Shown here: in pieces, positions 7,321-64,000 of the stretch
Numbering within the stretch: position 1 is the stretch's first letter
Layout of the letters: each line of letters opens with the position of its first letter
The notes under the pieces: generated by a model
Told to the model about the DNA's origin: nothing
Database searches by the model: none
Seen by the model: only the letters and a program-made list of their open reading frames with translations
Made by a program: the position numbers and the translations under genes
Assembly: GCA_020975725.1 (NCBI GenBank)
Contig: QXJR01000022.1
Coordinates: forward strand, 372,001 to 436,000
Direction: 5' to 3'
Length of the DNA stretch: 64,000 nucleotides
DNA from: Picocystis sp. L7
Lineage: Eukaryota; Chlorophyta; Picocystophyceae; Picocystales; Picocystaceae

Positions 7321-7807
7321 GGTCCCCTCTCCTTCCCACCTGCTTCCAACCGGCTCTCTCGAAGCCTCGTGCGAAACCTAGGCGAAGGCGCGACGCACGT
7401 GCGACAGCAACGAACGAGGAATGGACGCGATGGGACACGCCATGGCCGAGAAGAAACTCCCCTCGAGGGACCCTCCGAAGGGGAAAGGGGGGGGCGCATG
7501 GTTGAGCTTGGAGAACAAGTGCAAGCAGGGATGGGGCCAGGACAAGGAAAGGAAGGATCCCGATCAGGATGCATGGAAGAGAGGCACAAGCGTGGGACAC
7601 ACCACACAGAGCAGCAGTGGTGGAACAAGAGGACCCTTGCTCCGTGCATGGCGTCCTGGACGGACGACGAAGCCATGCAGGAGACCCCCGGGGCCGTACA
7701 CATCCCTTCGTCCAAAGCCAGGAATGTGGAAGACACGGACAACCGCACACATGATTGGTGGCCTGGCCATCGTTGCATGCCTCGTCCAAGCCACCCGCGC
7801 AACAAAC
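7321..7807. promoter_or_regulatory. 5' spacer of the zinc-ribbon gene
   Basis: This 487 bp spacer lies between the zinc-ribbon start (7320) and the GLTP stop (7808), both on the minus strand. It contains the GAGAAGAAACTCC element at 7448-7460 and a nearby CCTCGAGGG step. No protein is recognised in the overlapping open frames. Confidence 0.45.
7448..7460 (+). promoter_or_regulatory. GAGAAGAAACTCC element (zinc-ribbon gene)
   Basis: This is an exact copy of the 12-mer GAGAAGAAACTC plus C, 128-140 bp upstream of the minus-strand start at 7320. It is one of at least six copies in this window, all in 5' spacers. Confidence 0.5.
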
Positions 7808-8485
7808 TCACACCACCGCGTCGTTCTCGATCCCATGCCTCTGGTAAAAGTCCATGGTGTGCTCCACCAACGCCCGAAGCCCGTGGATGCACGTTTCCAG
7901 GTCGTGCAGGATGTCTTCGTGGACCCGCGTGTCTCGATCCAGATCCTGGTATCCCAGCTTCTGGAAGAACTTCTTGGTGCTCGGTGCAAGTGCAATGCTG
8001 GACTTGAACACGGCGTAGAGGACCATGCCGTGGTAGTTTTTCAACGTACATTCGTAGCTGTGGGACAGCGCCTTTCCCAGCGCCACGTCATCCACGTTTC
8101 CTTGGCGGTCTTGGGCCGACGGCAAGAAATCTTCCAACGCCACCAGGAGGAAGTGGAAGGCTCTTCTCGTCCACAGGATGGCGATGGTGGCGCTGGGATC
8201 CTGCTTGGAGATCCCTTCCTCCTTCTCGTGCAGCAGCAGCTCTTCCACGTGTCGATGATTCCCGCGAAACGCCTGGATCTTGGCCACGTTGTTCTCGATG
8301 TCGGCCTGCGCCGGCGCGAAGGCCATGCCGAACCTTCGGAACACGCGCACCACGGCTTGTGCGACGGTTATCCATGCGTCCACCTCCACAAGACGTCCTT
8401 CTGGACCGTCCTTCCACGTCGTTTCGTCCAGCACCTGCGCGAGCGACGCCAATGCGCGCGGTTCCGAGCTCGTTCCCGTCTCCAT
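7808..8485 (-). CDS. Glycolipid transfer protein (GLTP) domain protein
   Basis: The single exon gives 225 residues, close to the 205-225 typical of the family. The ligand-binding signature is present: D62, N66 and K69 in ADIENNVAKI, W105 and the following Arg pair in LWTRRAFHF, and a later His in KNYHGMVLY. These residues bind the sugar or phosphate headgroup in GLTP/ACD11 proteins. The family moves glycolipids or ceramide-1-phosphate between membranes from the cytosol. ATG 8485 is the first Met in a high-quality frame; the upstream extension overlaps the isochorismatase gene and was rejected. Headgroup preference (sugar versus phosphate) is not decided here. Confidence 0.85.
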   Translation of the reverse strand: METGTSSEPRALASLAQVLDETTWKDGPEGRLVEVDAWITVAQAVVRVFRRFGMAFAPAQADIENNVAKIQAFRGNHRHVEELLLHEKEEGISKQDPSATIAILWTRRAFHFLLVALEDFLPSAQDRQGNVDDVALGKALSHSYECTLKNYHGMVLYAVFKSSIALAPSTKKFFQKLGYQDLDRDTRVHEDILHDLETCIHGLRALVEHTMDFYQRHGIENDAVV

Positions 8486-8580
8486 CTCGACGTCGGAACG
8501 CTTCGTTTGGGACCGTTTCGTGTCGAGCAGGATAAGATGGACGTGTGGCGATGGGAGGTGTCGCAATTGGATCCTGGGTT

Positions 8581-9189
8581 TCACAAACAAGCGAATTCTG
8601 CGGGACTGGGCGGCCTTTCTTCGCGCACAAGCTTGCTGATGGCTTTGAAGGTGTCGCCAGACGCTTCGCCGAGCATCTCGAAGAGCGCCATCTCCGCCGT
8701 GGTGGGGACGCATCCGGCACGCAACATGCGTCGCATGGCCACGGCACGATCCAGGCTGCGCTGGGAGGTGATGGCATCGACCAGGAGGTGCACGTCCATG
8801 CCGTCTCGCACGAGTTCGAGCGCGGTTTGCACCACGCACACGTGCGCTTCCACGCCGCACAGGAGGACCTGGGACACGCGCAGGCGACGCAGCTCCTCCC
8901 GCACGTCCTCCGTGCACATGCTGAATCGCAGCTTCTCGTGCGTCTTCGTCCCTTCCGGCAGGCATTCGCGCACTTCCGGCACGGTGCGTCCCAGCGCCTT
9001 GGGATACTGCTCCGTCACCACCACCGGCATTCCCAGTACGCTCGCGCCGCGCACCGCCAGCCTCGTGGCGGCGATGGCGGCCTCTCCACCGCACAGGATC
9101 GGTCGGAACCGTTCCTGCACGTCGCACACCAGCAGCGCCGCCTGGCGAGCGCTCAATGCCGCCTGCTTCGCCGTCGCCATCGTCGCCAT
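8581..9189 (-). CDS. Isochorismatase-fold (cysteine hydrolase) protein
   Basis: The product is 202 residues. The catalytic triad of the superfamily is visible: D23 in VCDVQERF, a Lys near 87 (HEKLRF) and the nucleophilic C118 in LCGVEAHVCVVQTAL. The 'GVEAHVCV' form matches the ISOC1/ISOC2-type eukaryotic subgroup rather than true isochorismatases. The substrate is unknown. The gene lies head-to-tail with GLTP, 95 bp upstream of that gene's start. Two in-frame Mets (9189, 9180) could start it; a longer start at 9228 adds residues without conserved features. Confidence 0.8.
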   Translation of the reverse strand: MATMATAKQAALSARQAALLVCDVQERFRPILCGGEAAIAATRLAVRGASVLGMPVVVTEQYPKALGRTVPEVRECLPEGTKTHEKLRFSMCTEDVREELRRLRVSQVLLCGVEAHVCVVQTALELVRDGMDVHLLVDAITSQRSLDRAVAMRRMLRAGCVPTTAEMALFEMLGEASGDTFKAISKLVREERPPSPAEFACL

Positions 9190-11544: not shown

Positions 11545-11688
11545 CAATCTGCTTGTACAAGGCACACACAACTCGACATTTTTCGCCATTGTGGAGTAGT
11601 TCGTGTGCACCCGTCCTTCAGTTGCAATGCGGAACTGTTGTATAGAAATCCCAAGCGAACCTTTCTGTGCCGGTGGCAAATTTGATAG

Positions 11689-12663: not shown

Positions 12664-12774
12664 TGGTCTGCGGAGTGGAGCTCCACTTGTCCGCTTCGAA
12701 CACGAGGTTTGTTTCCTTGGGTGCACATGACCCTGGGGACGCGGACACCCCCTGACCCCGACCCCAAGACGGAA

Positions 12775-12789
12775 CACAGGGGCGGTAGA
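12775..12789. promoter_or_regulatory. CACAGGGGCGGTAGA box (transporter gene)
   Basis: This is an exact 15-mer match to the box at 3480-3494. It lies 112 bp upstream of the minus-strand start at 12663, in the same orientation relative to its gene as in the membralin upstream region. Confidence 0.45.
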
Positions 12790-13519: not shown

Positions 13520-13532
13520 GAGAAGAAACTCC
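13520..13532 (+). promoter_or_regulatory. GAGAAGAAACTCC element (YebC gene)
   Basis: An exact copy lies 104-116 bp upstream of ATG 13636. It is followed by ATCGAGGG; the copy at 7448 is similarly followed by CCTCGAGGG. Confidence 0.5.
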
Positions 13533-13635
13533 ATCGAGGGTTTAGTGGAGGGTTGGCGCACTTCCTGGTTCGCATTCCTCGTCACTTCGGATCCATCCGA
13601 GGCGAGGACGCCACGCGTGCTGCGCGCCTGGGAGG

Positions 13636-14487
13636 ATGTTCCTGAGCCGCCTGATGCAGAGGAGCCGCGCCTGCGGACGCACCAAGGGACGAAGGACGTT
13701 CCGAGGGACGGTTCCGACGTCCATGGGACGGCGTTCGGCGAAGATCGCCACGCGAAAAGGGAAGGAAGACGGACTCCGTGCCAAGCTGTACGGCCGAATC
13801 GGCAAGCAGATCGTGTCCACAGTGAAGCGAGGTGGTCCAGACGCATCGAGCAACGAGCAGCTGGCCCACGTGCTGCGAGAGGCACGTGCGCTGCGCGTTC
13901 CCAAGGAGCTGGTGGAACGCAACATCGCACGTGCTTCGGAAGGCAACCAAGCCGACTTCCAGGAAGTCACGTACGAAGCCTACGGACATGGCGGCGTGGG
14001 CATGGTGGTGGAATCTCTCACCGACAACGTCAACCGTGCCGCTTCGTCCGTGCGATCCACAGTGCGCAAGGCGGGTGGCAAAGTGGCGGAACCTGGAAGT
14101 GTCCTGTTCCTCTTCGCCAAGCAGGGACAACTGCGCGTGTTCCTGCGAGAAGGACAAGAAGAAGACGAGCTCTTGCGCGTTGCGGCCGAAGCAGGTGCCG
14201 ACGACATGTTCCCCGACGAGTGGGACGAAAACAACGATGGTGAAGGACAACAAGGAAACGCATTCGTCGCCGCCTATCGCGTCGTCACGCCCACCGAAGC
14301 TTGGTTCGCCGTCAAATCCGCCATCGAAGACGCCGGCATGCACGTGGACAACGCCAACTCGGGACTGCGCCTGGAACCAGGAGCGCGTGTAGAATGCAGC
14401 GACGAGGAGGAAGAGGCCAACGTCGCGCTCGTCGAGCGCTTGCTCGAACTCGACGACGTCGACACCGTCACCACCAACATGGCATGA
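13636..14487 (+). CDS. YebC/TACO1-type translational activator, probably organellar
   Basis: The product is 283 residues. The first ~28 are Arg/Ser/Thr-rich and look like an organelle transit peptide. Then comes MGRRSAKIATRKGKEDGLRA and KLYGRIGKQIVSTVKRGGPD, the classic YebC/PmpR start, followed by the conserved helical domain (PKELVERNIARASEG), the EVTYEAYGHGGVGMVVE segment and the TDNVNRAASSVR motif. TACO1 helps mitochondrial ribosomes translate COX1 in animals, and YebC helps ribosomes through polyproline in bacteria. Whether this copy serves mitochondrion or plastid is not decided. No intron is seen. Confidence 0.88.
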   Translation: MFLSRLMQRSRACGRTKGRRTFRGTVPTSMGRRSAKIATRKGKEDGLRAKLYGRIGKQIVSTVKRGGPDASSNEQLAHVLREARALRVPKELVERNIARASEGNQADFQEVTYEAYGHGGVGMVVESLTDNVNRAASSVRSTVRKAGGKVAEPGSVLFLFAKQGQLRVFLREGQEEDELLRVAAEAGADDMFPDEWDENNDGEGQQGNAFVAAYRVVTPTEAWFAVKSAIEDAGMHVDNANSGLRLEPGARVECSDEEEEANVALVERLLELDDVDTVTTNMA

Positions 14488-19313: not shown

Positions 19314-19373
19314 CGCGTCGGAAACTGCGCCGACCCTCGTGTTTTCGCTAGGGTTTATCTTCGGTGGTCTCGA

Positions 19374-19387
19374 GGTTAACTCGTTCG
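19374..19387. promoter_or_regulatory. GGTTAACTCGTTCG element in a bidirectional promoter
   Basis: The element sits in the ~100 bp between the CCDC12 start (19313) and the CCDC39 start (19416). Its last 12 bases recur exactly at 748-759 in another divergent spacer. Confidence 0.45.
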
Positions 19388-19415
19388 AAAACTCCGGTCC
19401 TTGCCGACACCGGAC

Positions 19416-33469: not shown

Positions 33470-33585
33470 CGCGCGTGCGATGCGGATGGCGCGAAACGTG
33501 CTTTGGTCGAATGGAATGGAACCCAGCTGGGTGGATCCCATGGGGGGGAAATCCAGGGGAGGACGCAGAGGAGGGACGAACAGGG

Positions 33586-33669
33586 ACGTCGATCGAAGAG
33601 GAGCATTCATGATCCCCAGGACCTCCGCGGGGAACGGAGGAAAAGCACGTTTCCATGGGGTCACAACCG
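33586..33669. repeat. 84-bp direct repeat, copy 1
   Basis: This 84-bp unit starts ACGTCGATCGAAGAGG and ends GTCACAACCG. It is repeated with some substitutions and no length change at 33720-33803, 134 bp away, in the SMC1 upstream region. Confidence 0.75.
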
Positions 33670-33719
33670 GGTGGTTCCCTCGGTCGGGGACAATCGCGGC
33701 CCGGGGCGGGCGCGGAGGA

Positions 33720-33803
33720 ACGTCGATCGAAGAGGACCTTTCATGACCCCCATGACCTCCGGGGGGAACGGAGGAAAGGCACGTCCCCATGGAGTCACAA
33801 CCG
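33720..33803. repeat. 84-bp direct repeat, copy 2
   Basis: The second copy has the same length and orientation as 33586-33669. Both copies include a CTCCG-GGGGAACGGAGG stem-like block and GGAAA-GCACGT. The roughly 50-bp segment between them is not part of the repeat. Confidence 0.75.
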
Positions 33804-34759
33804 TGTGGGCCTGTCGGATTCGCGTCGAGGGACGGGTGGGTTTCCGAAGAGGACCGCTTCGAGTGGAAGGACAGACGAACGACAAGCACGGAGAAAGACC
33901 GCGTCCGATCGAACGGAATTATTCATTGCAGCGCGAGGAAAGGCACGTCTACACGCGTCCTTCCCAGATGCAGTCTTGATAAGCACGATAGGTTCGGCTT
34001 TCAAGGAGAGCCTTGACCCGCGGAGGTGGATCCAGGCCGAGCTTCTCCGCGCGTTCCCAGCGTTCGATGCGGGTCAAGCCCATGCAAGGACCGAAACGGG
34101 AGTCCAAGTCGAATTCCCGCAGGCACGCCAGTGCTTCGTCCTTTCCCCCCCCTTCGTCGTCTGTTCACCATCGTTTGACCCGTCGTCCGTCAGCTCGTGT
34201 CCTTGGAACGGTGCTCTTGTTTCGTCCGTCCCTGGACCAGCGCCTCACCTCCGTTCCGCGCATCCGTTCGCATCTCCTTCTCCTTCTTGGTCCTCGCACG
34301 TCCTGGCTTGATGCCAGGGTAAGCGTCGACGACCGTCCCGCGTGCTGCCATCCCGACGTATCGTTCCTTCTGCTCCTCCTGCTGCGCGTGCTTTGCTCTC
34401 GTGTTCCGTGATCTTGGCGACCGTTTGCCACCGACCCCCTCACCCCTCGTTCCCCCTTTTACGCACCATCGCCCGACGAGCTTCTCCTCTCGTCTTCCTT
34501 CTCATCCTCCGCGCCAACCGGCATCCACGAACCTCCTCTCTCCCCCTCTTGCGGCGATTTCGAACCCACCTTCTTTCTCGTCGATTTTACCCCGTGGATC
34601 CGAACCGAGCCCTCCCGGTTCGCACCCTCCTCGCGTCTCGGACACGGGGTTAACTTCGGATGAACTTCGGGTGCCTGGGGTTCGGAAGGGGGGAAGGAAG
34701 GGGATGAACTCGATGTTAAATAAAAGGAGGGCGTTGGACGTGGTCCCGTTGCATCGGCG

Positions 34760-36677: not shown

Positions 36678-37263
36678 TAGAAATGTGTCAAGCGTGGCAT
36701 CCTGAACCGAGTGAACCGTATCTCGGGGTCCAACGACACCCTTTCTGTTTCTTCTCCCTTACGCCTTTCTGGCGAGGAGTACGGATTTCACCTTCAAGCT
36801 CGATGCTTTTCAACGGAGCCAACGACATGTGCTGAAGCTGGCCCCCTCGCGGAATGGTTGCTGTGCGATTTGGAGTGCTTCAGGCGTCTGGACCCCGATG
36901 GAGAGGGTCCATTTCAGGCGTTGCAGGTTTCCTGTTCGGCCCACACATCTTCCCCTGGAGCAGTTCTTCAGCGGCTTGGCCTCTTCACGGAAGATGCATC
37001 AGGTAAGGTTTGCCTGTTCCACAGCTCTTGTTCAATTCAGGCATGCACCTACCGCACACGAAACCCACCCCTTGGGATCGCCTCTGTCTCTCTGTCCTTT
37101 GGGATCGGGGTTGGTTCTATTCCTCTCCCGATCGGGGATCGCCTTTCCTTTGGAAAGGCGGATCGGATCGGGATCGATTCCGAAACGAAAGGAGGATCGG
37201 ATCCGAAACGTAAGGACGAGGATCCACCAACGTGGCGACACGATAAGACCTGGGATACGCGCC
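36678..37263. promoter_or_regulatory. 5' spacer of the thioredoxin/NHL gene
   Basis: This 586 bp spacer contains CCTTTGGAAAGG at 37148-37159, 105 bp upstream of ATG 37264, inside a GATCGGATC-rich block. No gene is recognised. Confidence 0.45.
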
Positions 37264-45492: not shown

Positions 45493-46983
45493 TTAGTGTG
45501 ACTCGCGGGATCCTGGCTCGTGCTGATAAAGTGCTGCACGTCCCGAGAGGCCTTCCTTTATTTCGTGGTTTGGGTCCTCGGGCCCATCCAAAATAAGGCC
45601 CTTGTATGTGCGCATGCTCAAAAACTCAGCAGCATTTGCAGCTTGTATTCCTCTGTTCCCAGTGAGCGAGAGTCCCCTGTCCTTCACAACCGACTGAAGT
45701 TTAGTCTCCATGTCAAGCTGAGCTAGTTCTTGCGGCGCTGGTTCCATCAGCTCCCTACCTGACGATTCATGATGGCTTGCTCTTTCTCCTGCACTGCCCT
45801 CTTGGTCGGCTTCGTTGACCAGACTAAGCCCAAACCTATATTTGCCTGTCCAGACCGTGTCTGTGAATGCCAGTTCTGCTTCGTACGTGGTGATGACGGG
45901 TGCGTAGTACTGTTTGCTGTCCACCAGACAGGTGTACGGGCATGCCACGAGCACGAACACGTCTACTTCGGGGAAATTGGCCAGTTTCGCCGGAGCCACA
46001 CGACTCATGACGAACACATACACGGTTTTGTTTGCGTTTTGGGCCATCTTTTCCACCCTCTTCACCGTGCTTCTGGTTTCAGCATCTGCCACGCTTTCGA
46101 CCGCCACGCCCACCACTTGGGCAAGTTTGGCCTTTTCCACGAAGAAGTGCCGCCTTCGTACAGCCTGAGTGGCGTCTGCAGGCATTCGAGTCACTTGATC
46201 TTCCTTTGGATCCCATCTCCACGCACTCTGAAAGGTATACTGCATCTGCAACGCACGCAGTTCTTCGTCTTCCTCTCCCAACCAGACCAGGTGGCCATTT
46301 TCCGTGCCATCGTCCCCGTCGTCCATCGTCCAAGACAGGCTTCCGCTGCTCTTCCAATGTGGCTCTCCGTTTCGATCGACGTGTCTCTTCATAATGATTG
46401 CGCGAAGGCTGTGCAGCTTCTCTTCGAGCATCGTCGCGACGCGCATCCAACGCCAGCCGACGCCCACCACGATGGGCCTTGGTTCGGCACTGCCTTGGTC
46501 GACCTCCTGCGCTCGGACGCGCTCGCAGGCGCATCGTGCGGCCTCCAGGAGCCTCTCATGCCAACTGGCAGACAGAGGAGGTGCCACGTGGATCACGTGG
46601 ATGCCACGTGGACGCGTGCGACAGGACGGTCCCACGTGGACCAGCAGTTCGCTGTCGGCGTGGTCGGCCGCCAAGGCGTCTTCGCAGCACCTGGATCGCG
46701 TGGATGAGAGCAAGAGGAACACCTGCGCGTCCGGGACTCCCTTTCCGACCATCTGACGCGTGATGCGACGCGCCAGGGATGCGCTCCTCGGCCACAGCTC
46801 GCGCGGCAGCTGCACGGACACCCGTCGGCGATCCAGCTCCCAGGCCCGTGCGGCCACTTCCGCCGCGAATTCGTCTTCTTCGTTCGTCCGACCGTCTTCT
46901 CCCTTCGTCTCCTCCTTCGCGAGGACCGTCGACGTGGCCATGGCGTCCTCGTTTGTGCGTGGTTCCGCCTCCATCGCGTCCAT
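45493..46983 (-). CDS. DPH2: DPH2, diphthamide biosynthesis radical enzyme subunit
   Basis: The product is 496 residues. The first cluster region RCCEDALAADHADSELLVHV then GPSCR matches 'CC.D..aA.H...d.vVHyG..C'. The second block has VYVFVMSRVAPAKLANFPEV, and the third FVLVACPYTCLVDSKQYYAP then VITTYEAELAF, the characteristic Dph2 'CP....d...y..PviT.yEl..a'. Dph1-Dph2 transfers an aminocarboxypropyl group to a histidine of elongation factor 2 using a 4Fe-4S cluster. ATG 46983 is preferred; an upstream Met at 47025 lies in GC-rich spacer. It faces RPN6 divergently across about 1.05 kb. Confidence 0.85.
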   Translation of the reverse strand: MDAMEAEPRTNEDAMATSTVLAKEETKGEDGRTNEEDEFAAEVAARAWELDRRRVSVQLPRELWPRSASLARRITRQMVGKGVPDAQVFLLLSSTRSRCCEDALAADHADSELLVHVGPSCRTRPRGIHVIHVAPPLSASWHERLLEAARCACERVRAQEVDQGSAEPRPIVVGVGWRWMRVATMLEEKLHSLRAIIMKRHVDRNGEPHWKSSGSLSWTMDDGDDGTENGHLVWLGEEDEELRALQMQYTFQSAWRWDPKEDQVTRMPADATQAVRRRHFFVEKAKLAQVVGVAVESVADAETRSTVKRVEKMAQNANKTVYVFVMSRVAPAKLANFPEVDVFVLVACPYTCLVDSKQYYAPVITTYEAELAFTDTVWTGKYRFGLSLVNEADQEGSAGERASHHESSGRELMEPAPQELAQLDMETKLQSVVKDRGLSLTGNRGIQAANAAEFLSMRTYKGLILDGPEDPNHEIKEGLSGRAALYQHEPGSRESH

Positions 46984-47546
46984 GCCCACGCTTCTCGCAC
47001 CGTTTCCTTTCGGGCTCCAACACAAGGGCTTCGTCCTCGGTTTCGATCCCGACTCGCTCCCGGGTCTCCGGTTCCATTACCCCCGAGGGATGCGAAATCG
47101 AACCGGGAACGGCGGGGAGGTCCTCCGGTCCACCCGGTTTGGAGAAGATACTCCCATCCATGCGAGGAGGTTGGGAGTCTGGGAGGGCATCCGAATGGGT
47201 CATCCCTGTGCAGGTTGAAGTGTGGCGCATGAAATGCATGGGACACGGCAGCACTGCCTCACCCGGACGGACGTGTTCCACGGGAGGGTCAGAAAGGTGT
47301 GGGAGAGACGAGCGTGGACGCTCGCTGCTGCTTTTTCGGATTCGTGGGACCGCCAGGGATCTTCGGAGCACGGCCAGCTGTGGCACCCATGCACTTCCCA
47401 TTGGGACCTGTTGCGGCGACTCGCCTGCGGTTCCGTTTGGAAGGGTCGTCCCAGGCAGCAGTGCATTGCCGCTTGATCTCGATCCATCTCAAACCACCCC
47501 AGGAAGGAAGATATTGAGAGACCTGGGTCCAGGGATCCCTCTGTGG

Positions 47547-47576
47547 GAGTTTCTTCTCTATTGGGAGAAGAAACTC
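47547..47576. repeat. Perfect 12-bp inverted repeat of the GAGAAGAAACTC element
   Basis: GAGTTTCTTCTC at 47547-47558 and GAGAAGAAACTC at 47565-47576 are perfect reverse complements separated by 6 bp (TATTGG). They could form a hairpin or bind a dimeric factor. Confidence 0.7.
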
Positions 47577-47884
47577 TATCATGCAGGCAGGCAGGGACGA
47601 CGGTCCCGAACGGACCGGCTGGTGCCGGACTCTTGATAGGTCGCACGAATGCGACCTCGGATACTTCACATGCAGGAGTGAATCGATCGATTACATGCTC
47701 AAAAGCCGCCACCAAGCACCCCCGCCATCAAGACGCTCGTCCATTGGATCCATCGGCCGAACCCTGTCGGTTCAGACCGACCCACCAGCCCAAGGGAATC
47801 CTCACTCCATTGAGGATCATCTGTTTTTAGAAGACGATTCGGTCCAAGGTCCGTCCCGACCCTCCCCCTGGGCCCATGATCCAG

Positions 47885-47897
47885 GGAGTTTCTTCTC
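47885..47897 (-). promoter_or_regulatory. GAGAAGAAACTCC element (RPN6 gene)
   Basis: GGAGTTTCTTCTC on the plus strand is the reverse complement of the element, 140-152 bp upstream of ATG 48037. Confidence 0.5.
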
Positions 47898-48036
47898 CAA
47901 GGATTTCCCCTGAGGACCCAGGAGCAGGCGGTGGCCGATCGCGAACCAAAGCACGTGCGCGCGATCGTGCCAAGGCCACGCCTGGACGCGGATCGGAAGC
48001 GCAGCAGGACGAGTCCCAGGGTGGGAGACGGAGACG

Positions 48037-49429
48037 ATGGAAGAGAGGGTGGACGAGGCGATGCAGGTGGGAAAAGAAAGACCGGTGGAAGCCGAAGAGG
48101 AACTGCGAGCCTTGGCCATCGACGGTGAAGCAGGGGATGCCGACGCGATCAAGGCCAAAGAACAAGCCATCGCCGCGATCGTCGAGTCCCTCGCCGAAAG
48201 AGGGGATGCAGATGGACTTCGAAAACTCATGCACGACCTCAGGCCGCTCTACGCCAAGATCGCGAAAGCGAAGACCGCGAAGATCGTGCGACAAGTCATC
48301 GACGCCATCGCCAAAGTTCCAGGAACCAAACCACTGCAGGTGCGCCTTCGGAGATGCGATCGAACGAAGCGAGGGAGGAACGTTGAGAACAGGGAAATAG
48401 ATGGGAGCGTGAGGAAGAAAACGGAAGCGGAACGGAGGGACTGACCGTGGATGCGGACGGAAACGAACGCACGTGCAGGTGGAAGTGTGCAAGGAACAAG
48501 CGGAGTGGGCGAGGAGCGAGAAGAGAACCTTCCTACGACAGAGGATCGAGGCGAGGCTTGTCAACCTGTACCTGGAAACCAAGGAGTTCACGGCCGCATT
48601 GGAACTCATCCAAAAGCTGCTCACGGAAGTGAAGCGACTCGACGACAAGCTCCTGTTGGTGGACATCCATCTGCTCGAAAGCAGGATCCACCACGCCTTG
48701 AGGAACCTACCCAAGGCCAAAGCCGCGCTCACAGCAGCACGAACCGCTGCAAACTCGATCTACGTACCGCCGGCCACGCAGTCCTCCATCGACAGCCAAT
48801 CGGGTGTGCTCCACGCCGAGGAGAAGGATTACAAGACGGCGTACAGCTACTTTTTCGAAGCGTTCGAGCAGCAGAGCTCCCTGGACGATCCCAGGGCCAT
48901 CTTGTCCTTGAAGTACATGCTCCTCTCCAAGATCATGTGCAATCAAGCGGACGATGTAGCCAACATCATCAGTTCCAAGGGGGGTCTCAAGTACCAAGGG
49001 GTGGATGTGGAAGCCATGCAAGCCGTGGCTACTTCCTACACGAAACGGAGCTTGCACGAGTTCGAAAAGTCACTCAAGGACTACGAGGCACAGCTAGGGG
49101 AGGATCCCATCATCCACAATCACCTGAACTCTCTGTATAACACACTCCTAGAGCAGAACCTGTGTCGCTTGATTGAGCCGTACTCGAGGGTGGAGATCGC
49201 GCACCTTGCACAGAGGATCGAGCTTCCTGAGAAGCAGGTGGAGGTCAAGCTGTCTCAGATGATCCTGGACAAGGTCATCGACGGGACTTTGGATCAAGGC
49301 GCAGGTTGCTTGATCATATTCGACGAAATTCCGCCCAACAGCTTGTACCCGGAGGCGATCGATACGATGAAGAACATGGAGGGCGTGGTCGCAAGTTTAT
49401 TCCGGAAGAGTGAGAAGTTGGCCGCATGA
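48037..49429 (+). CDS. PSMD11: RPN6/PSMD11, 26S proteasome lid subunit, two exons
   Basis: Exon 1 is 48037-48339 and exon 2 is 48479-49429, phase 0, 417 residues (animal PSMD11 is 422). After an acidic start come the helical repeats, including LLLVDIHLLESRIHHALRNL, PKAKAALTAARTAANSIYVP and LHAEEKDYKTAYSYFFEAFE, which are diagnostic of Rpn6. The PCI domain ends with RVEIAHLAQRIELPEKQVEV then KLSQMILDKVIDGTLDQGAG. Rpn6 clamps the lid to the core particle. Exon 1 carries the 'EE.L..L' helix and exon 2 begins VEVCKEQAEWARSEKRTFLR. The downstream minus gene ends 52 bp away. Confidence 0.93.
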
Positions 49430-50373: not shown

Positions 50374-50493
50374 ATGGTTCGGTCATATCACGGCGAAAGC
50401 ACCCGATCCCATCAGAACTCGGAAGTTAAACGCCGTTGAGCCGGATTAGTACTGGCTTGGGTGACCAGCTGGGAATCCCCGGTGCCGAACTGT
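50374..50493 (+). rRNA. 5S ribosomal RNA
   Basis: Exactly 120 nt with the eukaryotic 5S core: CGATCCCATCAGAACTCGGA, AGTTAAACGCC, GGATTAGTACTGGCTTGGGT and GACCAGCTGGGAA. The ends pair (GGTTCGG near the 5' end with CCGAACT near the 3' end) to form helix I. The A-box/IE/C-box internal control region for TFIIIA and Pol III is intact by eye. A T-run follows at 50502-50506. Only one copy is present in the window, in a 5' spacer between two protein genes. Confidence 0.95.
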
Positions 50494-50506: not shown

Positions 50507-50655
50507 CCGCGTTCGGGTGCCCCAAAAAACGTTTTTCCACGTTGGGAGGGATCGACATCGCACATCCCACAACCAAACGCGGCCACCAAGCGCTTCGTTG
50601 CGAGCGCGAACGCGCTCGTTCGTGCCACGTCGGGCGGTGCTGGGACGCTTCCGGG

Positions 50656-51192: not shown

Positions 51193-51245
51193 TTTATTGG
51201 ATGGAACAGAGGCGGTGTAAGCAAAGGGAATGAAGACGATTCTGT

Positions 51246-53327: not shown

Positions 53328-56071
53328 ATGGCGAAGGACATTCGCTCGTCGCCACGAGTTGCTTGCGTTTGCACGAGGATGGCGATGTCGACGGTGATGG
53401 AGGAAGACCTGGAGCACGAAGAAGAGGTGCTGCATGCGCCACACGACGTGCGAACGTGGTGGAAGTACCTGCAGGACCGACGCGACGCGACGCGACACCT
53501 AAGACACGTGCTCTTCGAAAGAGGACTGCACGCCTTGCCTGGAAGCTACAAGGTGAGGCGCACGTCGAACGAGAGACGCGTGAAGGAAAGGAGAGCGATT
53601 TCGGAGGAGATGGGAACGAAACTGACCACGTGGATGCGTCGCTGGAACACGGGGACACGCACAACCAACGCCACTGCCGTTGGAATGATGGACCGGGGTC
53701 TGCGACTGCGTGTCATGTGATGATCGGATGGGTCATGCAACAGCTCTGGCACGCCTACCTGCAGGAAAGGAGCCAAGCCTTGCGTGGATGCGCGCCGCAC
53801 CATCCGGGATACGAGGCCATGAATTCCACCTACGAACGTGCGCTGGTCAACCTGCATAAAATGCCCAGGATATGGATGGAATACTTGCAGTTCCTGGTCA
53901 AGCAGAAGAGGATCACCAAGGCCAGGCATGCGTTCGATCGAGCGCTGTGCGCACTCCCCATCACCCAGCACAACAGAATTTGGGAAATGTACCTGGACTT
54001 TGCGAAGATGGAAGGCGTTCCTGCAGAAACGTCGGTTAGGATCTATCGGAGGTACTTGAAACTAGAGCCAACACACGTAGAAGAATTTGTGGGCCACCTG
54101 CTGCGCGTGGAAAGGTGGGGAGAAGCCGCCAGCCTGATGGCGGATGCACTCAGCGACCCCGGGTTTCGATCTTCCGAAGGGAAAAGCAGGCACCAGCTTT
54201 GGTTCGAGCTGTGCGACGTGATCACCAAGCACCCAGACGATGTCCGAAACCTGAATGTAGAAGGTATCATTCGCAGTGGGATGGTCATCTTTCGCGACGA
54301 GGTGGGACGGCTTTGGGCGTCGCTGGCAGACTACTACATAAGAAAGGGCATGTTCGAGAGGGCTAGGAGCATCTATGAAGAAGCAATGGAAAAGGTATCC
54401 ACAGTGCACGACTTCAGCCTTGTTTTTGATGCCTACTCTCAGTTTGAAGAAAGCATCGTCACCGCTAGAATAGAGATGGTTGAGGAAGAAGGGGATCAGG
54501 AAGTGGACGAAGATGGGAGGGAGTTTTGGCTGAAGGACACAAACAACGACCTGGACTTGCGCTTGGCCCGGTTGGAGGACCTCATGAACCGTAGGCCGGT
54601 GATGCTTAGCAGTGTGTTGCTTCGTCAGAATCCTCACAATGTTCACGAGTGGCACAAGAGGGTTAGGCTATTTGAGGGCGATCCAGTGAAGCAGATCGAA
54701 ACCTACGGCGAAGCCGTGAGAACGGTAGATCCAAAAAAGGCGGTTGGGCGGCCTCACTCGCTCTGGTGTGCTTTTGCCAAATTTTATGAGCGCCATGCAG
54801 ATATCGACAACGCAAGGATGGTTTTCAAGAAAGGTACCGATGCAGATTTCAAGACCACGGATGATCTGGCCAGTGTTTGGTGTGAGTGGGCTGAGATGGA
54901 ACTGCGGCAAAAAAATTACCAGGGTGCATTAGACTTGATGAAGAAAGCAACTTCCAACGGAAGTTCTGGGCAAATAGGAAGTAGAAGCTTTGTACCCCAG
55001 CAGCACTTGCACAAAAGCCTGAAGCTGTGGAGCTTTTACTGTGATTTAGAGGAAAGTCTAGGAACTCTAGAAGGCGCACGAGTAGTGTATGAGAAAATGC
55101 TAGACATCAAGGTCGCAACGCCCCAGATCATTCTAAACTATGCTCTATTGCTGCAGGAACACCGCTACTTTGAGGACTCCTTCAGAGTTTACGAGCGTGG
55201 CATCAATCTGTTCAATTTTCCGCACGTGAAGGATATCTGGCAAGCTTACCTGGCTCAGTTTGTTGATAGGTTCAAGGGCTCGAAGCTAGAGCGGGCTCGG
55301 GACCTGTTTGAACAGGTCCTTGATGTAGTTCCACCTGACGATGCATGTGTTTTTTTTCTGCAGTACGCTAAGTTCGAAGAGGATTATGGTCTAACGCGGC
55401 ATGCAATGGAAATTTACGAGAGGGCAGCCCAGAGGGTGCCAGTGAAGGAAAAACGGAAGGTGTACACCATCTACATCCACAGTGCAATGGAGTACTTTGG
55501 AGTGGCACGCACACGGCATGCGTATGAGCATTGCATAAATGCAGACCTACTTGAGGACGACGCACGAGCCTTCTGCCTAGACTACTCGAGGTTTGAGCAG
55601 AAAATTGGAGAAATCGATCGAGCAAGAGCAATTCTTATACATGGATCGCAGTTCGCAGACCCAAGACGGCACCCTGAATACTGGAAGCAATGGAAGCAAT
55701 TTGAGATAGACTATGGCAACGAGGATACTTTTCGAGAAATGCTCAGGATCAAGCGATCAGTTGCAGCAGCCTTTGCACAGCAATACTACAACTTTACAGC
55801 AGCTTCTGCTGTTGAGAAGTCGGAGGCCAATGAAACTGCTATGGCTGCCTTGGAGAAGGCTCAAGGTGAGGGCACAGATGGTATCACAGGCTTTGTACCA
55901 GCAACAGCTGCCGATGGAGGCGGAAAGCTTGAGCAGAACAATCCTGATGAGATCGACCTTGGCGAGGACGAGGGCGAAGAAGACGCGCACCAAGAAAAAG
56001 AGGATGTCCATCTTGAAGAACAACCAGTGCCTCGTGCAGTTTACGGTAGCCTTCAAGGAAGGGAACCCTGA
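53328..56071 (+). CDS. SYF1: SYF1/XAB2, TPR/HAT spliceosome scaffold, two exons
   Basis: Exon 1 is 53328-53552 and exon 2 is 53744-56071, phase 0, 850 residues (XAB2 is 855). The junction gives LPGSYKLWHAYLQERSQ, as in the family. HAT repeats run through the protein, including MPRIWMEYLQFLVKQKRITK, ARHAFDRALCALPITQHNRI, YYIRKGMFERARSIYEEAME and KLWSFYCDLEESLGTLEGAR, and the acidic C-terminus includes DEIDLGEDEGEEDAHQEKED. Syf1 is a core member of the Prp19/NTC-associated complex that remodels the active spliceosome. CCDC12/Cwf18, another NTC-related factor, is also in this window. AATAAA lies about 80 bp after the stop. Confidence 0.95.
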
Positions 56072-59000
56072 TTATGGGTAAATGGCTGGCAATAGACGAT
56101 TTGACCAAATCTATACCTATCGGCATTTGGGAAGATCATCGGAACAATAATAAAGGATTTCCTTTACCAGGAGCTAGGCCTTGCACTTTCTCTTCTGCAA
56201 TACACGAGAGGAAATTTGTGTACATACCTAGAGATCACCGGAGCAACCCAGCCGGTGCACCATTTCCTTTCTGCGCAAGAGGCTTGGTGTCACATGCATT
56301 GGACTCGTGCCTAACAGTGCGTCGTGCCCCGGATCGGCAGTGGACGCGTGGGTCCGCAAGTTGCCAGGGAGGAAGACAACAATGGACAATCGCTTTGTGG
56401 TGCTATCCTGATAGGTCGCTTGGGGCTTGTCCGACCCTTTGTGATCTGGACATCGTGAACTGATTCCTAATTTATTGAGGACCAGAGCAGCCATCTTCAG
56501 GCCAACACCCGAAGCAGTTGTGTGATTGGTGTGATGCAACACCACGAGCCTGGTACAATTCTGCTACCGAAGGCCTTGACGATCTGCACGCCCTCTCTCG
56601 TTGGTGTCGGACCCATTTCCTTGTTCCTAGATCCACTTCTGCTCGAATCATGTCGCATCGCTCTATTTCCATAAGGTAAGCCACTCACCAACTCATCCGT
56701 ACCCTGACACTCCGCGCCGTTCGTTGTGTTTCGGTGTGACTCCGCTACCCATAGGAACTGGACACCGTCCTTCGGGAGAGGCACGTCTTGCAGCTCTGCC
56801 ACTCAGGCAATATGTTGGCTTCTATTTACTTCTGACCTTGGACTAAAACAAATATCCGTGCTTAGGGTGGAACCCTGACCCTGTCTCAAGAATGGCCTAG
56901 CCCGTTTTTAGCTATCATTAGCTCACATGGATTTCGAAAATTACACAGGAGAGAATGTACCCAGGATTCGCGACACTTGCCTTTACGACCGATCCCACTG
57001 GTTGCGTAAGCACAGATATGACACGATGATTGTGTTGTGCAATGGACTTCTTGTCCAATTGTTTGAAGATGATTTTGTCGCCTTTGCCTTCGCCACACTC
57101 GCATCGGAGTGATGCATAACCTCCTTGTCCATTACATACAACCCTTGTACTTGACCCTTTTGAACAAACGAGGTAGATGTAATTGGATCGGTGTCACGGA
57201 TCCTTCCGACAAGCACGAGGTGTATCCCGCACGCGTTGCTCCGCAATCAATTCAAAGAAGCACGTCGCACGGTGCCCATCTTTGCCCTCAATGCCACTCA
57301 ACTCTTGTGTGCATGTCCCACTTATGTTGCTCATAGTTTGCAGGATTGCGAAGCAATGCTATTTGCAAGTATTCTCCCTTGCTTGAACTCTTGTAAGAAC
57401 TGGAGGCATGGCACACACCCACACAACAATCTCGTGTTCCATCCTAGCTCTATCGCCACCATCCTTGACACGTTGGCCAAGCAAGTTCCTCCACCACAAA
57501 GGTGCGCCAACAAGAAGATCGGCCTTGACCATGTAGAGTAATAGTTCCTTGCATGCTAAGGGCACACATAGAAAGTTCACGACGTGTATAAGATAGAGAG
57601 AAAGGCCCCGTTTAGTGACCCTTGCAGTCGCCTAGCACTCGCGCGAACAGACGTTGGCCTTGTGATAAAGGGCTTTCGCCTAAGTGGGGCTATCAAGATA
57701 TCGCACACTTGTCCAATCTTGTATTACCGTGTCGGGTACAAATTTCAATGGTGGCCCGTGACGCATAGGAAGCAAGGTAGATGCGAAGATGCTTATGTTG
57801 GCTTGAAGACTATATGCTTCTGGACCGAGAGAGTGCAAAGCAGGCACCGAAGCTAAAAGCTGCATCTAGTATACACACACAAACAACAATATCGCAATCA
57901 TCGATTGCGTTGCTCGGCCCCTTCGTGGCTATAGACCCATGCGCACCACGCGCTAGCGAGATCGCTCTCACAAGGTAGACAATGCTTTTGTATTTGAAGG
58001 TTGTGTAATGGCCGGCAAGCAATTTTTCAACACCACAATTTCGTGCGACGGTGAGTTGCCCGTCTTAGTAGAAAGCCCCCGAAAAACCTTTTTGGAGAAG
58101 TACGACGTATTCATACACATGGCGGGAACACTGGTCGATTGCCGACCGCGTTTAGCATGACTTCGACCCACCCCATTCCACATGTCTATTGAACGTATGT
58201 GTTGCACCGTGGGATTCTCATGCGTAGCAACATGCTTAATCAAAGGTTGAACGCCCACAGCTTTATGGCCGTTGCAAGCTCGCGAGCTTTCTTGGGTATC
58301 AGAGCAGCGTTGTGGCATTCCTTGAAGGATGTGCCTCGAGCTCCACGGCTCCGCCGGCACTTGGATCACTCAGCAAGGCATGCAAAATAACGTTTTTGAG
58401 ATAACCTCGGGGTCAAGGTCCGGATGACAACGAATGCAAAATGGCTTGAGAAAAGATATGGGACTTGCAAAAAATCGCACACGGCGCCATGTAGCACCTG
58501 CCGAATGTTGGATGGGGCAAGGTGGACGAGAGCAAACTCTACTGCCGTCTTTTTGGCTTCCCATCCAAACGTAGCTCACATTCGTGGAATCGATGATCTT
58601 CACGTGAATATACGCTTCAACCACTCCTCTTGTCGCACGGAGTTTGTCAATGTCCGCAAACAGGAGCTTGGCATGCTTTGTAACCCCGTCAAAATCGGAC
58701 AGGGTCTCTTTCTTTCACACGTTTATAATTTGGAGGCTCGCTAGCCGTCAACAACTCCCCATTCCTACTACCAACCATTGCATTGTACGTAAGTTTCCGG
58801 TACTGGCACTTGAGGTGGCAAACGCTTCGTGGGGACATCACTCACTCTAGGATTGCTAGCCCCCTCGTGGCAAAGATTAGCCTATGGGGGCATGTCCCCG
58901 CACAATTTGCCTCAACTTGTCCTTCCATGACACCGGCATAGCGGTGGAGGGTCGCCGCCATCACGCCACCAAGCTTGTTCGCTTCTGCATTGTATGCAAA

Positions 59001-60986
59001 AATTTGCACTGTGGGTTGTCAGAACCGCTAGGTTGAGTGGTGGAGCTTCTATACAGTGCACGAGCCCCGTCCTTCACGTCGCTTGACTCCTTCGGGAAAC
59101 TTGCTCCGGGTCGAACCCCATAATCATCCGTTAAATCAACCACAGAACCCTTGTAATGAAGGGACACCGGCTAGTACCCATTCGAGTCCGGATGGGGCCT
59201 TGAATTCACTTAGGCATATATCTTAGTAGAACATACAACCGAACAACGGAATACTATAATTTATCAATTGTAGACTCGATAGACATGTCTCCGATCGATC
59301 AAATGATGTGCGCTTGGCGCATGTACTCCTTGGTTCCAAGCTTTTGAAAAGTGGCTCTTCTCATGTGTGCAAGTTCTTCCACCGCGCATCGTTGGATTCG
59401 CAATCCACAACGAAAACCGTACGTTAGGACTTCCTCATCCAAGTGCAATGCGATGAACGACACGGTGCGCACTCGTGGCGAGCGATCCGTTCAATCCCCT
59501 CCTCCCTCGGGGAATCCACCACGGGTGTTCCTAGGCAAGGGACTGCCTCTCGGATCTCCTCCACACAAGGGAGGCCTCTCTACTTGTGAAGTACGAACCA
59601 CTTCTTTGAACACATGCTTGCCCACGCGCCTCTCACGTGCGCTTGGAGCCGTCTCCTCGCTCGTTCGCACCTCCTCATCGTGGGCAACCACGTTTGATCT
59701 ACCTTTGAGACCACCCCCTACATGCTTTTCAGGCGTGGACACAAGAACGTGGACCCCGGCTACGTCTTGGAACCACTGGTCCACGAAAAGCGAAAACGTT
59801 TGAATCGCATTGGAAAGAGCGAAGATCGGAAGACCACGCAAGAAACCGTCGTCAAGTACACCTTGGGTGGTTTCCTTCTTGGGGATGATCCTTGCAAAGA
59901 AAACTTCAAACGGGCTTTTCAAAAACCGGTCATCGCGTTCTCGAAACGCATGCATTTGGCCAGCGTATGTTTGAATCTATTCCTTCGCGAAACCTTTCCC
60001 GGCCTAGACACACACGATTTAAACGACGCAAACATTCCCAACAAGTTGGATCAAACCCTCCTCCACCCACTGATGCTTGGTGTCAACAGGACACATGAAC
60101 CGTCCGAGATCGTTGTGTTCCTTAAGAGACACCCCGATATGTGCGCCAGGGTCGATGCGTGCGAACGGTATGCGGGAGTCAGCAACATGCACTAGTTTGG
60201 TGCCATCAAATACTGGACCAACCTCAAAACCTCAACCACGAAGTGGCGGGATCACGCGTTGGATCAGACGGTGGATCTATTCCTCGGCGGTCAAGCAACG
60301 ATTGGAAACAATGTTGCCTTCCTCGGAACACAAAAAAAACGACCAAGGCATTGTTGTATCATTTCCACAACTGGCCCTCTTTCGGACGATTCCCTTGTCG
60401 TTCTCGATGCCATGCCTTCCGAACATGCATCGGGGATTCGAATTCAAAAAGGATTGAACGGTGAATTCCCAAGCCGTACAAATGTCGTGGGAACGGAAGC
60501 AAAAGCAGTGAGGGCTTTCCTCATGTGAAGTCCATGATGCAGGAATGTCGAACCCAAGGGTTACAGGTTTGGGTAACGCGTGCGTGTTTCCTCTTCATTC
60601 CATGCTCGAACTGTCAAGGGGAGGGGTGTCCCATGATTCCCTTGGCCGAGTGTAGGAGAACATTGTAGGGAGTAGACGTGGTGGAGCGCGTGCTCAAGCA
60701 AGTCGCACACAAGATGCCAAGTGACAGTTGTAGTCCGGCTACGCAGTGACTTTGGAGCAAGCAGCAACTCACCCTGAACAATTGCGATCCTTTGGCCCAC
60801 AAAGAACGTGCTCGTATTTTCCGCTGATTGGCATTTCTTTTCGAAACGACAGCATCAATCATACTCCTTTCCAAGAGGGGCGAAGGTTGAGTCGCTTACG
60901 TGTTCCACAAGAGATTGAAATCGAAGAAACTTCACTCAAAGAAAACCGGGCAGATCACTTTGATTATTGACGAGGATTCTTGTGGA
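56072..60986. other. 4.9 kb island without a recognised gene
   Basis: This is the longest gene-poor stretch. It is more AT-rich and less patterned than the 5' spacers. Open frames of 60-157 codons occur on both strands, for example plus 59722-60195 and 60259-60528 and minus 59491-59955 and 56983-57246. Some have credible amino-acid composition, but none shows a motif I can name. No terminal or target-site repeats were found by eye. It could be decayed coding DNA, a degraded mobile element of unknown type, or unrecognised lineage-specific genes with introns. Confidence 0.5.
56149..56154 (+). terminator. AATAAA poly(A) signal of SYF1
   Basis: AATAAA lies 78 bp past the SYF1 stop codon in AT-richer sequence. 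Confidence 0.4.
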
Positions 60987-63590
60987 TTAGTTTCCAGCAG
61001 AAAGTGAGGCAAGTTCTGCCTTCTTGCTATCTGCCCCTGGTGCTGTTGCAGGCTGTGAATCCCTCTTTCCAGGGCTTTGCGGAAGAGCCTTGGGGGTCCC
61101 CTCCTTCTGTAAATGAGCCTGGACCCCCGGTTCTTGCTCGTTGGCTTCAGCATCGTCGTCCGCCAGTTCCATCACCGGAACTCGCCAAAAATTGACATCT
61201 CCAAACTCCTCATGCAGGCTCTTTTCTCCTAACATGCATGGAAACATGTGGTCAACGAACGTGTTTATGCTACTGAAACTCGACCATGCTGCCCCCTTGA
61301 CAGTGGATGCAGCAGATACCATTTCACTCTTAGAATTTATTGTGAAAATTCTTACTCGCGGAATACCAACTGATTCATACGAAAGCTGGTCTGTTGGCCT
61401 GTTTCCAAACCCAGCGTAAAAAGGGCTCCAATCATCTGGAAAAAGAGATTTGACATTCTGCAAGCAATTGATTTTGAACTCATGAGGCCTCTTTAATACG
61501 ACTTCCCGATAGAGACTAGGAAAAATTCCATCAGGAGAGATCAGAACAGGTCCATACGGCAAGTATTCTCCATCTTGTATCACATTCATGAGATAGTCCC
61601 TTGTCCTAGAGGCTTGTCCAATTGAGCGGGAGGACAAGTAGACTACCACGTATCCGTTTTCCTTGATGTTTGTGAAAAGGTTGGCAACCCCACTGTGGCT
61701 CCAGTCCTTCCCCACTATAGGCATGAGATGCCCAAGCATGTCACTTTTGGTAATGGTACCATCTACGTCTGTGACCACAAGCTTGCTGTCCCAGTTGATT
61801 AGATACAAATAACATTGCACTTGCTGAATACCCCACATACTTGTTTTGAAAGTAAATGTTATGAGATTTCGCCCGTCCTGTAGACCCATACTCGCCAGTT
61901 GCTCACTGGTGGGAGTCAGGCTTCGTCGATATCGATGGGAGTTCCCTTGAAAAAGGTTCCTTGGTTTGAGCACCACCTGCTGGGCTTCCACCTTTTCCCT
62001 CTCTCTCTCGATGCTTTCAGCAATATCTTCTACTGGTTGCTTTTTCTGCTTTCCTCTCCCAGAGGAGTTGCGATTAAATGGCCAAAAGATCTTAGACCAC
62101 CCTTCCGACTTTTGTTGCTCTTTGGACAGCACCATACCTTGTTCAACAGATGCTGCTGGTAAGGCCAAGCTACCATTGCCCGGGAGAGTCACTGGAAGAT
62201 TGTATGCGAGGCCACCAACTAGTGCGGGCAGGAACATCTGGAATGGAACAACTTGCCCTTGGATCCTGCAGACAAGATTAGGTGACTGAAGGATCGATGC
62301 CATGTCCTCTTTGAATGCAGCTTCCGGTACAATATGCGCAGAAAAGATGCTACTGATGGTAGCTTCATCGAGTGTTGCTTCGAGAAGGTGGCCACACAGG
62401 GAAAGCTCAAGCCCAGTGGCTGCAAGCTCCTTCCAATCAAGTTGGAAAGCTTCATCCTTGGATGGTGTCCTTGGTTCCACTCCTTTTCTCATTTTCTCCC
62501 CGTCGAATAAGGTTGTGCTGCCATATACGCTCTCAGTACTACGGCTTTGTGTACAGTCGCTTTCTTCTGAACTTCCCCCTATACCTTCGCGGCGAGAGGA
62601 GGCAAACAGTTCTCCATCCTCCCCCATGGATGCTACCGACTCTTCAGGGATGCTTTCGTGTTCTTGAAACATCCGCTGGTTTGTCTTGGACCTCCATACC
62701 TCTTCTGCTGAACCCTTTCGTGCATCCGTGCCGATGTCCTGTATCCTGATACCAGGCACTTCTACCCTCACCTGTTCACTTGGAACTACCCACAAGTTGA
62801 TCTTGCAGAAACCTTCCAGCACTATCAGATCTAATTGCACTTGCTCAAAATTTCGATGACCTTTGACCCCTGCGTTTACATTTGTACCTGTTGATTCCAG
62901 TTCAGGGGGGTGATCTGCAGAGGAAGTCTCATGCAGGCCGTCCGTCCGCCTTTCCTCAGCTTGTTGCAAGGCTCTTTGAGCTGCTATAGCTCGGGGTGAC
63001 ACGGCTGCATTGAAAATTCCATTGGCATGGCTTTGCTTGGTGGCTTCTAATACAGCATTCGCTTCTGCTTGGCTGATAGGTCCAGCGTGTGCGGTGGTGG
63101 CATAAGGTGGTTCTTCACCGGAGGAATATCCGCTGGTCGGCGACAGTATGCCGTCCATTTCTTCCATGGCTTCGTATGCGTCCAATTCCATGGCGATTTC
63201 TTCGTCTTGAATCCTCATCCATTCGTCCAACATCCTGGCCTCCTCTTCCTCTTGTTCACTGCCTGCTGGTGTTGGATCCCTGTCTGGTGGGGTCCCATGG
63301 GCGTCCCTTGCAGCCACGAAGTACGCTTCTCCGCTCCTTCCCAGCTGCATGGTGACGTCCACTTTCTTCCCTCCCACTTGCAACCTCACTCTTTTCTCTC
63401 TGCTGCGAAGCAATCCTTGGTACTTGCCAAACCTCACGTAAAAGGGCGAGCACCGCATGCTCCCGTCCGGCTGTCGCACCGCCAGCACGTCCACTGCTCC
63501 TCCCAGGGCAGGCATGGCGAACGACGATGCGGACAGCACCGCATTGCCGACGTCTTTCACCTTGCTTCCCACGTATCGCGCACGTCGCAT
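60987..63590 (-). CDS. Lipin / phosphatidate phosphatase (P AH-type)
   Basis: The product is 867 residues, one exon. The N-LIP domain has YVGSKVKDVGNAVLSASSF, ALGGAVDVLAVRQPDGSMRC then SPFYVRFGKYQGLLR. The catalytic LNS2 domain has the DxDxT motif KLVVTDVDGTITKSDMLGHL (DVDGT at 608-612), YLSSRSIGQASRTRDYL, PDGIFPSLYREVVLKRPHEF and PFYAGFGNRPTDQLSYESVG. A long acidic/Ser-rich linker separates them. Lipins dephosphorylate phosphatidic acid to diacylglycerol for membrane and storage lipids and shuttle between cytosol and membranes. CCCTTTCGAAAAGG and GAGAAGAAACTC elements lie upstream. Confidence 0.93.
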   Translation of the reverse strand: MRRARYVGSKVKDVGNAVLSASSFAMPALGGAVDVLAVRQPDGSMRCSPFYVRFGKYQGLLRSREKRVRLQVGGKKVDVTMQLGRSGEAYFVAARDAHGTPPDRDPTPAGSEQEEEEARMLDEWMRIQDEEIAMELDAYEAMEEMDGILSPTSGYSSGEEPPYATTAHAGPISQAEANAVLEATKQSHANGIFNAAVSPRAIAAQRALQQAEERRTDGLHETSSADHPPELESTGTNVNAGVKGHRNFEQVQLDLIVLEGFCKINLWVVPSEQVRVEVPGIRIQDIGTDARKGSAEEVWRSKTNQRMFQEHESIPEESVASMGEDGELFASSRREGIGGSSEESDCTQSRSTESVYGSTTLFDGEKMRKGVEPRTPSKDEAFQLDWKELAATGLELSLCGHLLEATLDEATISSIFSAHIVPEAAFKEDMASILQSPNLVCRIQGQVVPFQMFLPALVGGLAYNLPVTLPGNGSLALPAASVEQGMVLSKEQQKSEGWSKIFWPFNRNSSGRGKQKKQPVEDIAESIEREREKVEAQQVVLKPRNLFQGNSHRYRRSLTPTSEQLASMGLQDGRNLITFTFKTSMWGIQQVQCYLYLINWDSKLVVTDVDGTITKSDMLGHLMPIVGKDWSHSGVANLFTNIKENGYVVVYLSSRSIGQASRTRDYLMNVIQDGEYLPYGPVLISPDGIFPSLYREVVLKRPHEFKINCLQNVKSLFPDDWSPFYAGFGNRPTDQLSYESVGIPRVRIFTINSKSEMVSAASTVKGAAWSSFSSINTFVDHMFPCMLGEKSLHEEFGDVNFWRVPVMELADDDAEANEQEPGVQAHLQKEGTPKALPQSPGKRDSQPATAPGADSKKAELASLSAGN

Positions 63591-64000
63591 CGCGCTCGGT
63601 GCGTGTCGGATTCGCGACCAGGAATCGCTTCGGCACGGTTTCGAACCCGAAGGCCTTCCCTTTCGAAAAGGAAGGAAGTTTCCGATCGATCGGACGAGGA
63701 ACCGCCTTTCGAAACCCGAAGGAGGAGGGGTGCGGTGCCAGGGGACCTTGGCGCATCAGAGAAGAAACTCCCTGGGAAGGGGAGGGATGAGGAGGTGGCA
63801 GGATCCAAACCAGCTGGCTTCCACGAGATCCGAAGCCCACGGCGAGACGTACCGTCCGTGGGAGGGTGATCCGGAGGTAAGGGATGCACCAGGAGGGTGT
63901 TCGATCCGGTGCCCTCTCCTGTGCGAGATCATGAAAAGGTGCAGGACATCCTGGTGCAATTGCCCTTCCAAGCGAAGGTGCTGCATGCTTCCAAGGGAAA
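63591..64000. promoter_or_regulatory. Upstream region of lipin (to window end)
   Basis: CCCTTTCGAAAAGG is at 63658-63671 (68-81 bp upstream of ATG 63590) and GAGAAGAAACTCC at 63759-63771 (169-181 bp upstream). This is the only spacer seen with both motif families near one start. No gene is recognised to the window end. Confidence 0.5.
63759..63771 (+). promoter_or_regulatory. GAGAAGAAACTCC element (lipin gene)
   Basis: An exact copy, followed by CTGGGA; the copy at 13520 is preceded by CCCTGGGA. Confidence 0.5.

Follow-up and report, generated by a model that had tools for sequence, protein, structure and literature searches.

In the green lineage, the promoters of housekeeping genes carry short words such as the plant telo-box (AAACCCTA) and site II (TGGGCC); to our knowledge, little has been catalogued of algal promoter words beyond the model species. 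Three other described systems serve here as terms of comparison. The mammalian M4 motif, bound by Ronin (THAP11), corresponds to CTGGGARWTGTAGTY and is located on average at −81 bp from starts (PMC10329844, in the part cited here). In Drosophila, the Motif 1/M1BP system places one factor at the promoters of at least 2000 active genes (PMC11229372, cited part). The ZYRE word of Chlamydomonas, YGACAYGAC, reaches its enrichment peak 51–100 bp upstream of starts with no strand bias and is tied to zygote genes and GSP1 (PMC4889651, cited part).

The word described in this work, the 12-mer GAGAAGAAACTC, recurs in the window, that is, the whole 64 kb stretch of DNA that was analysed, and has GGGAGTTTCTTCTCY as its working consensus. 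It resembles M4/Ronin in being a long and sharply defined word just upstream of housekeeping-type genes; however, Ronin is an animal factor and both GGGAGTTTCTTCTCY and its complement, when compared by eye, differ from CTGGGARWTGTAGTY as given in the cited part of that paper (PMC10329844). Motif 1/M1BP, also based on an animal factor, can be likened to it by role (a word at many promoters). By analogy, GAGAAGAAACTC may work like these long housekeeping promoter words. It shares with ZYRE the position and the freedom of orientation, but ZYRE, in the cited part of PMC4889651, belongs to zygote genes and GSP1, whereas the genes carrying GAGAAGAAACTC look everyday, and YGACAYGAC is, by eye, a different word. 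Since the sequence differs from both, GAGAAGAAACTC was assigned neither to M4 nor to ZYRE. The telo-box and site II also differ from it in sequence, and in the window TGGGCC is found both inside and outside modelled genes, while AAACCCTA occurs once. A literature search with the word, its shortened and complementary forms and algal promoter words revealed no title describing GAGAAGAAACTC among the matches listed; those listed for the word and its variant forms deal, judging by their titles, with subjects other than algal promoters.

The window is eukaryotic nuclear DNA, as indicated by a 5S rRNA gene and by the Pfam families matched, which include SAPS, GLTP, isochorismatase, YebC/TACO1 (PF01709, PF20772), cwf18, CCDC39, a DNA-repair metallo-beta-lactamase with a SAM domain, PAP/fibrillin, SMC, scramblase, NHL/thioredoxin, lysine-decarboxylase-like (LOG), LpxB, diphthamide synthesis, RPN6 (PF18055, PF01399), GNAT, kinase, SYF1 and lipin (PF08235, PF04571). 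The diphthamide-synthesis family (PF01866) cannot separate DPH1 from DPH2, and the name DPH2 is that of the preliminary description; the zinc-ribbon label rests on Cys pairs in the translation and not on a family match. A plastid is suggested by PAP/fibrillin and a flagellum by CCDC39; the host would thus be a photosynthetic, flagellated eukaryote, probably a green alga whose genome is compact. Among solved structures, SYF1 and CCDC39 matched best 8xi2_I and 7ju4_A (“Flagellar-associated protein 59”), respectively, both of which we take to be from Chlamydomonas. Overall, 29 genes were modelled, their spans covering 58.7% of the window, with starts inferred from open reading frames (ORFs) and not from transcripts; coding potential was judged with a codon model, in place of a hexamer version that retained no more than ten ORFs. 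The starts used for SAPS, g3, GLTP and DUF7880 are rough, and stretches with no clear gene (e.g., 56–61 kb) contain no modelled gene.

Some other features of the window may be reported here. The single 5S rRNA gene (50375–50493) lies amid protein-coding genes, between DUF7880 and GNAT, and is the sole gathering-level Rfam match in the window; a tRNA search with ARAGORN under the bacterial code found none. Nearly five kb (56072–60986) of this otherwise gene-dense window lack any ORF of at least 180 aa and gave no Pfam match in six frames (stops as X), and the G+C content is lower, 0.502, at 56001–60000. Around the inferred SMC start, at 33582–33817, there are two copies of a 102-nt direct repeat, 85% alike and 134 bp apart from start to start. 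Searches for relatives in viral contigs through SYF1, RPN6 (second exon), SMC, lipin and DPH2, and in genome contigs through SYF1 and RPN6, found none. The 15-mer GGGAGTTTCTTCTCC gave 84 stretches in viral contigs, with one match in each of the 80 listed, and the 12-mer occurs once in 83 of these 84 loci and twice in the remaining one; these were read as probable chance matches.

The copies of the word, together with its degenerate forms, are the following:

1885–1896, plus strand: one-mismatch copy GAGAAGTAACTC, not upstream of a modelled gene.
7448–7459, plus strand: exact copy, reading GAGTTTCTTCTC toward the zinc-ribbon gene (minus strand), 127 bp before the inferred ATG at 7320.
13520–13531, plus strand: exact copy, reading GAGAAGAAACTC toward YebC/TACO1 (plus strand), 104 bp before the inferred ATG at 13636.
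36745–36756, minus strand: possible degenerate copy CTGTTTCTTCTC with two mismatches, 141 bp before the inferred ATG at 36898 of the NHL/thioredoxin-like gene (plus strand).
47142–47153, plus strand: one-mismatch copy GAGAAGATACTC, located 158 bp upstream of the inferred ATG at 46983 of the diphthamide-synthesis gene (minus strand).
47547–47558, minus strand: exact copy, left arm of an inverted pair, 563 bp from the DPH2 ATG and 478 bp from the RPN6 ATG.
47565–47576, plus strand: exact copy, right arm of the inverted pair, 581 bp from the DPH2 ATG and 460 bp from the RPN6 ATG.
47886–47897, minus strand: exact copy, reading GAGTTTCTTCTC toward RPN6 (plus strand), 139 bp before the inferred ATG at 48037.
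63759–63770, plus strand: exact copy, reading GAGTTTCTTCTC toward lipin (minus strand), 168 bp before the inferred ATG at 63590.

Recurrence above chance is expected of a proximal promoter element, and this is what was observed: the six exact copies have to be compared with a mean of 0.00 and a maximum of 0 in 100 dinucleotide-preserving shuffles. Allowing one mismatch, GAGAAGAAACTC has eight places in the window (shuffle mean 0.53, largest 4), those gained being 1885–1896 and 47142–47153; the latter is absent from the list in the preliminary description. The word shares the rank of commonest 12-mer of the window with AGGGAGAGGGAG, a simple repeat also present in six copies. As GAGAAGAAACTC had been picked for recurring, its count was also set against that of the commonest 12-mer, whichever it was, in each of 80 Markov simulations (40 of order 3 and 40 of order 5). 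The unfiltered top 12-mer reached at most five copies, in one run out of 80; after a crude low-complexity filter (at least eight distinct 3-mers, GAGAAGAAACTC having exactly eight), the top 12-mer had three copies in 75 runs and four in the other five. Degenerate copies are few, which makes the word sharper than a usual factor site, even though a word picked for its exactness is expected to look so; for the same reason, i.e., because exact copies were sought, the core columns of the alignment are invariant mostly by construction.

With respect to the modelled genes, none of the six exact copies falls within a gene span (binomial P 0.0049, or 0.012 if the inverted pair is taken as one), and four of them are found in the 300 bp preceding a modelled start, a zone corresponding to 12.1% of the window (P 0.0027, or 0.00098 with the pair taken as one). 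These four are located within 90–180 bp, i.e., in 4.0% of the window (P 3.7e-5, or 1.3e-5 with the pair taken as one), but this interval was chosen after the distances were known, so that the value for 300 bp gives the fairer comparison. With one mismatch allowed, eight out of eight copies are outside modelled genes and five lie within 300 bp before a start (P 0.0011), the spacing of these five, one of them mismatched, being 104–168 bp. The concentration upstream of starts expected of a proximal promoter element is therefore found, in one window and with ORF-inferred starts. The preliminary description, which had reported six exact copies, an expectation far below one, a location in 5′ spacers only and four copies 100–180 bp from an ATG, is borne out on all these points, the second of them by the shuffle mean of 0.00, the third for the six exact copies and as far as genes were modelled, and the last by inferred ATGs at 104 (YebC), 127 (zinc ribbon), 139 (RPN6) and 168 bp (lipin).

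An exception to the 5′-spacer rule is the one-mismatch copy at 1885, which lies about 54 bp past the stop of a plus-strand ORF, with the nearest suitably directed modelled start 2984 bp away, and is probably a chance match. The two-mismatch copy at 36745 before the NHL gene is suggestive of membership and not more, since matches with two mismatches are found in coding DNA too. Matches with three mismatches, seen upstream of ISOCH, LOG, LpxB, DUF4200 and the kinase in a set of 25 regions of 300 bp preceding genes, were attributed to chance and left out of the count. Five of the 29 modelled genes carry the word (six with the weak NHL match), and for this reason GAGAAGAAACTC is not a universal promoter element.

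As regards orientation, four of the five gene-proximal copies read in the GAGTTTCTTCTC sense toward their gene (as GAGTATCTTCTC at DPH2) and the fifth, that of YebC at 13520, is reversed; the occurrence in both orientations is what would be expected of a proximal promoter element. Among seven aligned copies, DPH2 included, a G precedes GAGTTTCTTCTC at position −1 in six and at −2 in five, and C or T follows in six. On this basis GGGAGTTTCTTCTCY was adopted as consensus, but its extension beyond the core is uncertain, since the flank columns −9, +18 and +23 are equally biased (1.07–1.30 bits) on these seven sequences, and the GG extension may be due to chance; in the same seven-sequence table, the arms of the inverted pair share flanks with each other. 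The flanks are shared in part, as the preliminary description had stated: CTCGA adjoins two copies (7448 and 13520) and CCTGGGA also two (13520 and 63759), although on opposite sides of the word, with CCTGG adjoining the copy at 47886. In a search for direct repeats of at least 18 nt (largest 20 of 50 families), the word appears as a 21-nt family joining the copies at 7448 and 13520 (86%) and an unrelated place with two mismatches.

The copies at 47547 and 47565 are the 12-bp arms of a perfect inverted repeat with a 6-bp centre, which lies between DPH2 and RPN6 and at least 460 bp from either modelled start. An Rfam search up to E 1 over this spacer (46980–48060) gave no match. Just past the pair begins a 110-aa ORF (47581–47913) that includes the copy at 47886 and is probably a chance ORF.

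The word is not alone in its distribution. The five occurrences of GCACGTGCGCGC (721, 27540, 29104, 35284 and 47951) all fall outside modelled genes, 16–561 bp before a modelled start, and this word, with its CACGTG core, is a second candidate promoter word. Likewise, ACGCGTGCTGCG is found at 13613, 27751 and 43227, in all three cases outside modelled genes, on the coding strand and 23, 121 and 214 bp before inferred starts; its shorter part CGTGCTGCGC has one further occurrence within the g3 span. Given that both words, like GAGAAGAAACTC, lie outside modelled genes and before starts, several word-like promoter elements seem to be in use in this genome. TATAAA occurs twice in the window, in neither case within 800 bp before a modelled start. 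Moreover, TTAACTCGTTCG (754 and 19380) is common to the region before g1 and to the cwf18/CCDC39 spacer, which also harbors, at 19349, the telo-box-like AAACCCTA.

On the whole, we suggest, with a probability of about 0.75, that GAGAAGAAACTC forms the core of an element of proximal promoters, with working consensus GGGAGTTTCTTCTCY, predicted to be bound as double-stranded DNA by a sequence-specific protein. A promoter site usable either way is preferred because it best accounts for the position, the orientation and the missing long shared flank of the copies. According to this model, a DNA-binding protein would recognise GGGAGTTTCTTCTCY in either orientation near the transcription start, the word lying upstream of the transcript and not inside it, and the bound protein would help to open or recruit transcription at an everyday subset of genes: the diphthamide-synthesis gene, RPN6, YebC/TACO1, lipin, the zinc-ribbon gene and perhaps the NHL gene. 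The inverted pair would supply the divergent DPH2/RPN6 region with additional sites. We infer these steps, i.e., the upstream position, the binding, the activation and the role of the pair, from the arrangement of the copies. Some observations weigh against the model: the evidence comes from one 64 kb window; five genes out of 29 are concerned; the inverted pair lies far from the starts and the copy at 1885 behind a gene; and the putative 110-aa ORF, whose reality is doubtful, would contain the copy at 47886. In particular, a promoter site does not explain the inverted pair well, which may be either an extra site of the divergent region or part of an unseen transcript.

The preliminary description had left the choice between a promoter and a leader element. 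The position before inferred ATGs, the absence from modelled genes, the presence of both orientations and the one-mismatch copy at DPH2 speak for the former. An element inside the 5′ UTR, acting on translation or stability of the mRNA, appears unlikely: a distance of 104–168 bp to the ATG could fall within the transcript, and one orientation is indeed common to four of the five gene-proximal copies, but the leader is disfavoured by the reversed YebC copy, to which the two orientations of the inverted pair have to be added. RNA folding points in the same direction, since in four of the five single-copy stretches the fold does not surpass that of shuffles (z −0.75 to +1.42). The one at YebC has a fairly good fold (z −1.81, nine of 200 shuffles being as good), and the inverted pair outdoes most shuffles (z −2.40, four of 200 as good), as follows from its being an inverted repeat. 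It is quite unlikely that the word is instead a chromatin, boundary or replication-related protein site placed in open 5′ spacers and leaving the neighbouring gene unregulated; such a site would suit the five genes out of 29 and the isolated pair far from starts, but would not be expected to keep a narrow spacing to five inferred ATGs, and nothing positive turned up for it in our analyses.

The near-identity of the copies, the perfect inverted pair and the few bits of flank common to two or three copies might also recall a dispersed short repeat or the remnant of a mobile element, e.g., the end of a small inverted-repeat transposon. A repeat of this type would be expected to share a long sequence beyond the word; none was found in the flank table or among the direct repeats of at least 18 nt (largest 20 of 50 families), which disfavours a mobile repeat, and the six exact copies avoid modelled genes, four of them lying close before starts, so that this origin seems very improbable. 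Finally, chance combined with the reader's selection is hardly credible: GAGAAGAAACTC was selected because it is recurrent, and other repeated 12-mers do arise from composition, but shuffles yield 0.00 copies of it and the simulated maximum for any 12-mer was five, reached once in 80 runs, or four after filtering.

In conclusion, the recurrence of GAGAAGAAACTC is real, and as a proximal promoter site the word would be a believable element of an ordinary kind, a new example of a known one; taken alone it alters no established idea. It is doubtful that it is bound by a highly selective factor, not described so far, which would mark a class of housekeeping promoters across this algal lineage, as a counterpart, independent of them, to the M4/Ronin or Motif 1 systems of animals. 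If genome-wide counts hold, however, a near-invariant word of 12–14 bp would be of use in predicting start sites, would offer a means of isolating the factor and might provide a short element for algal expression constructs.
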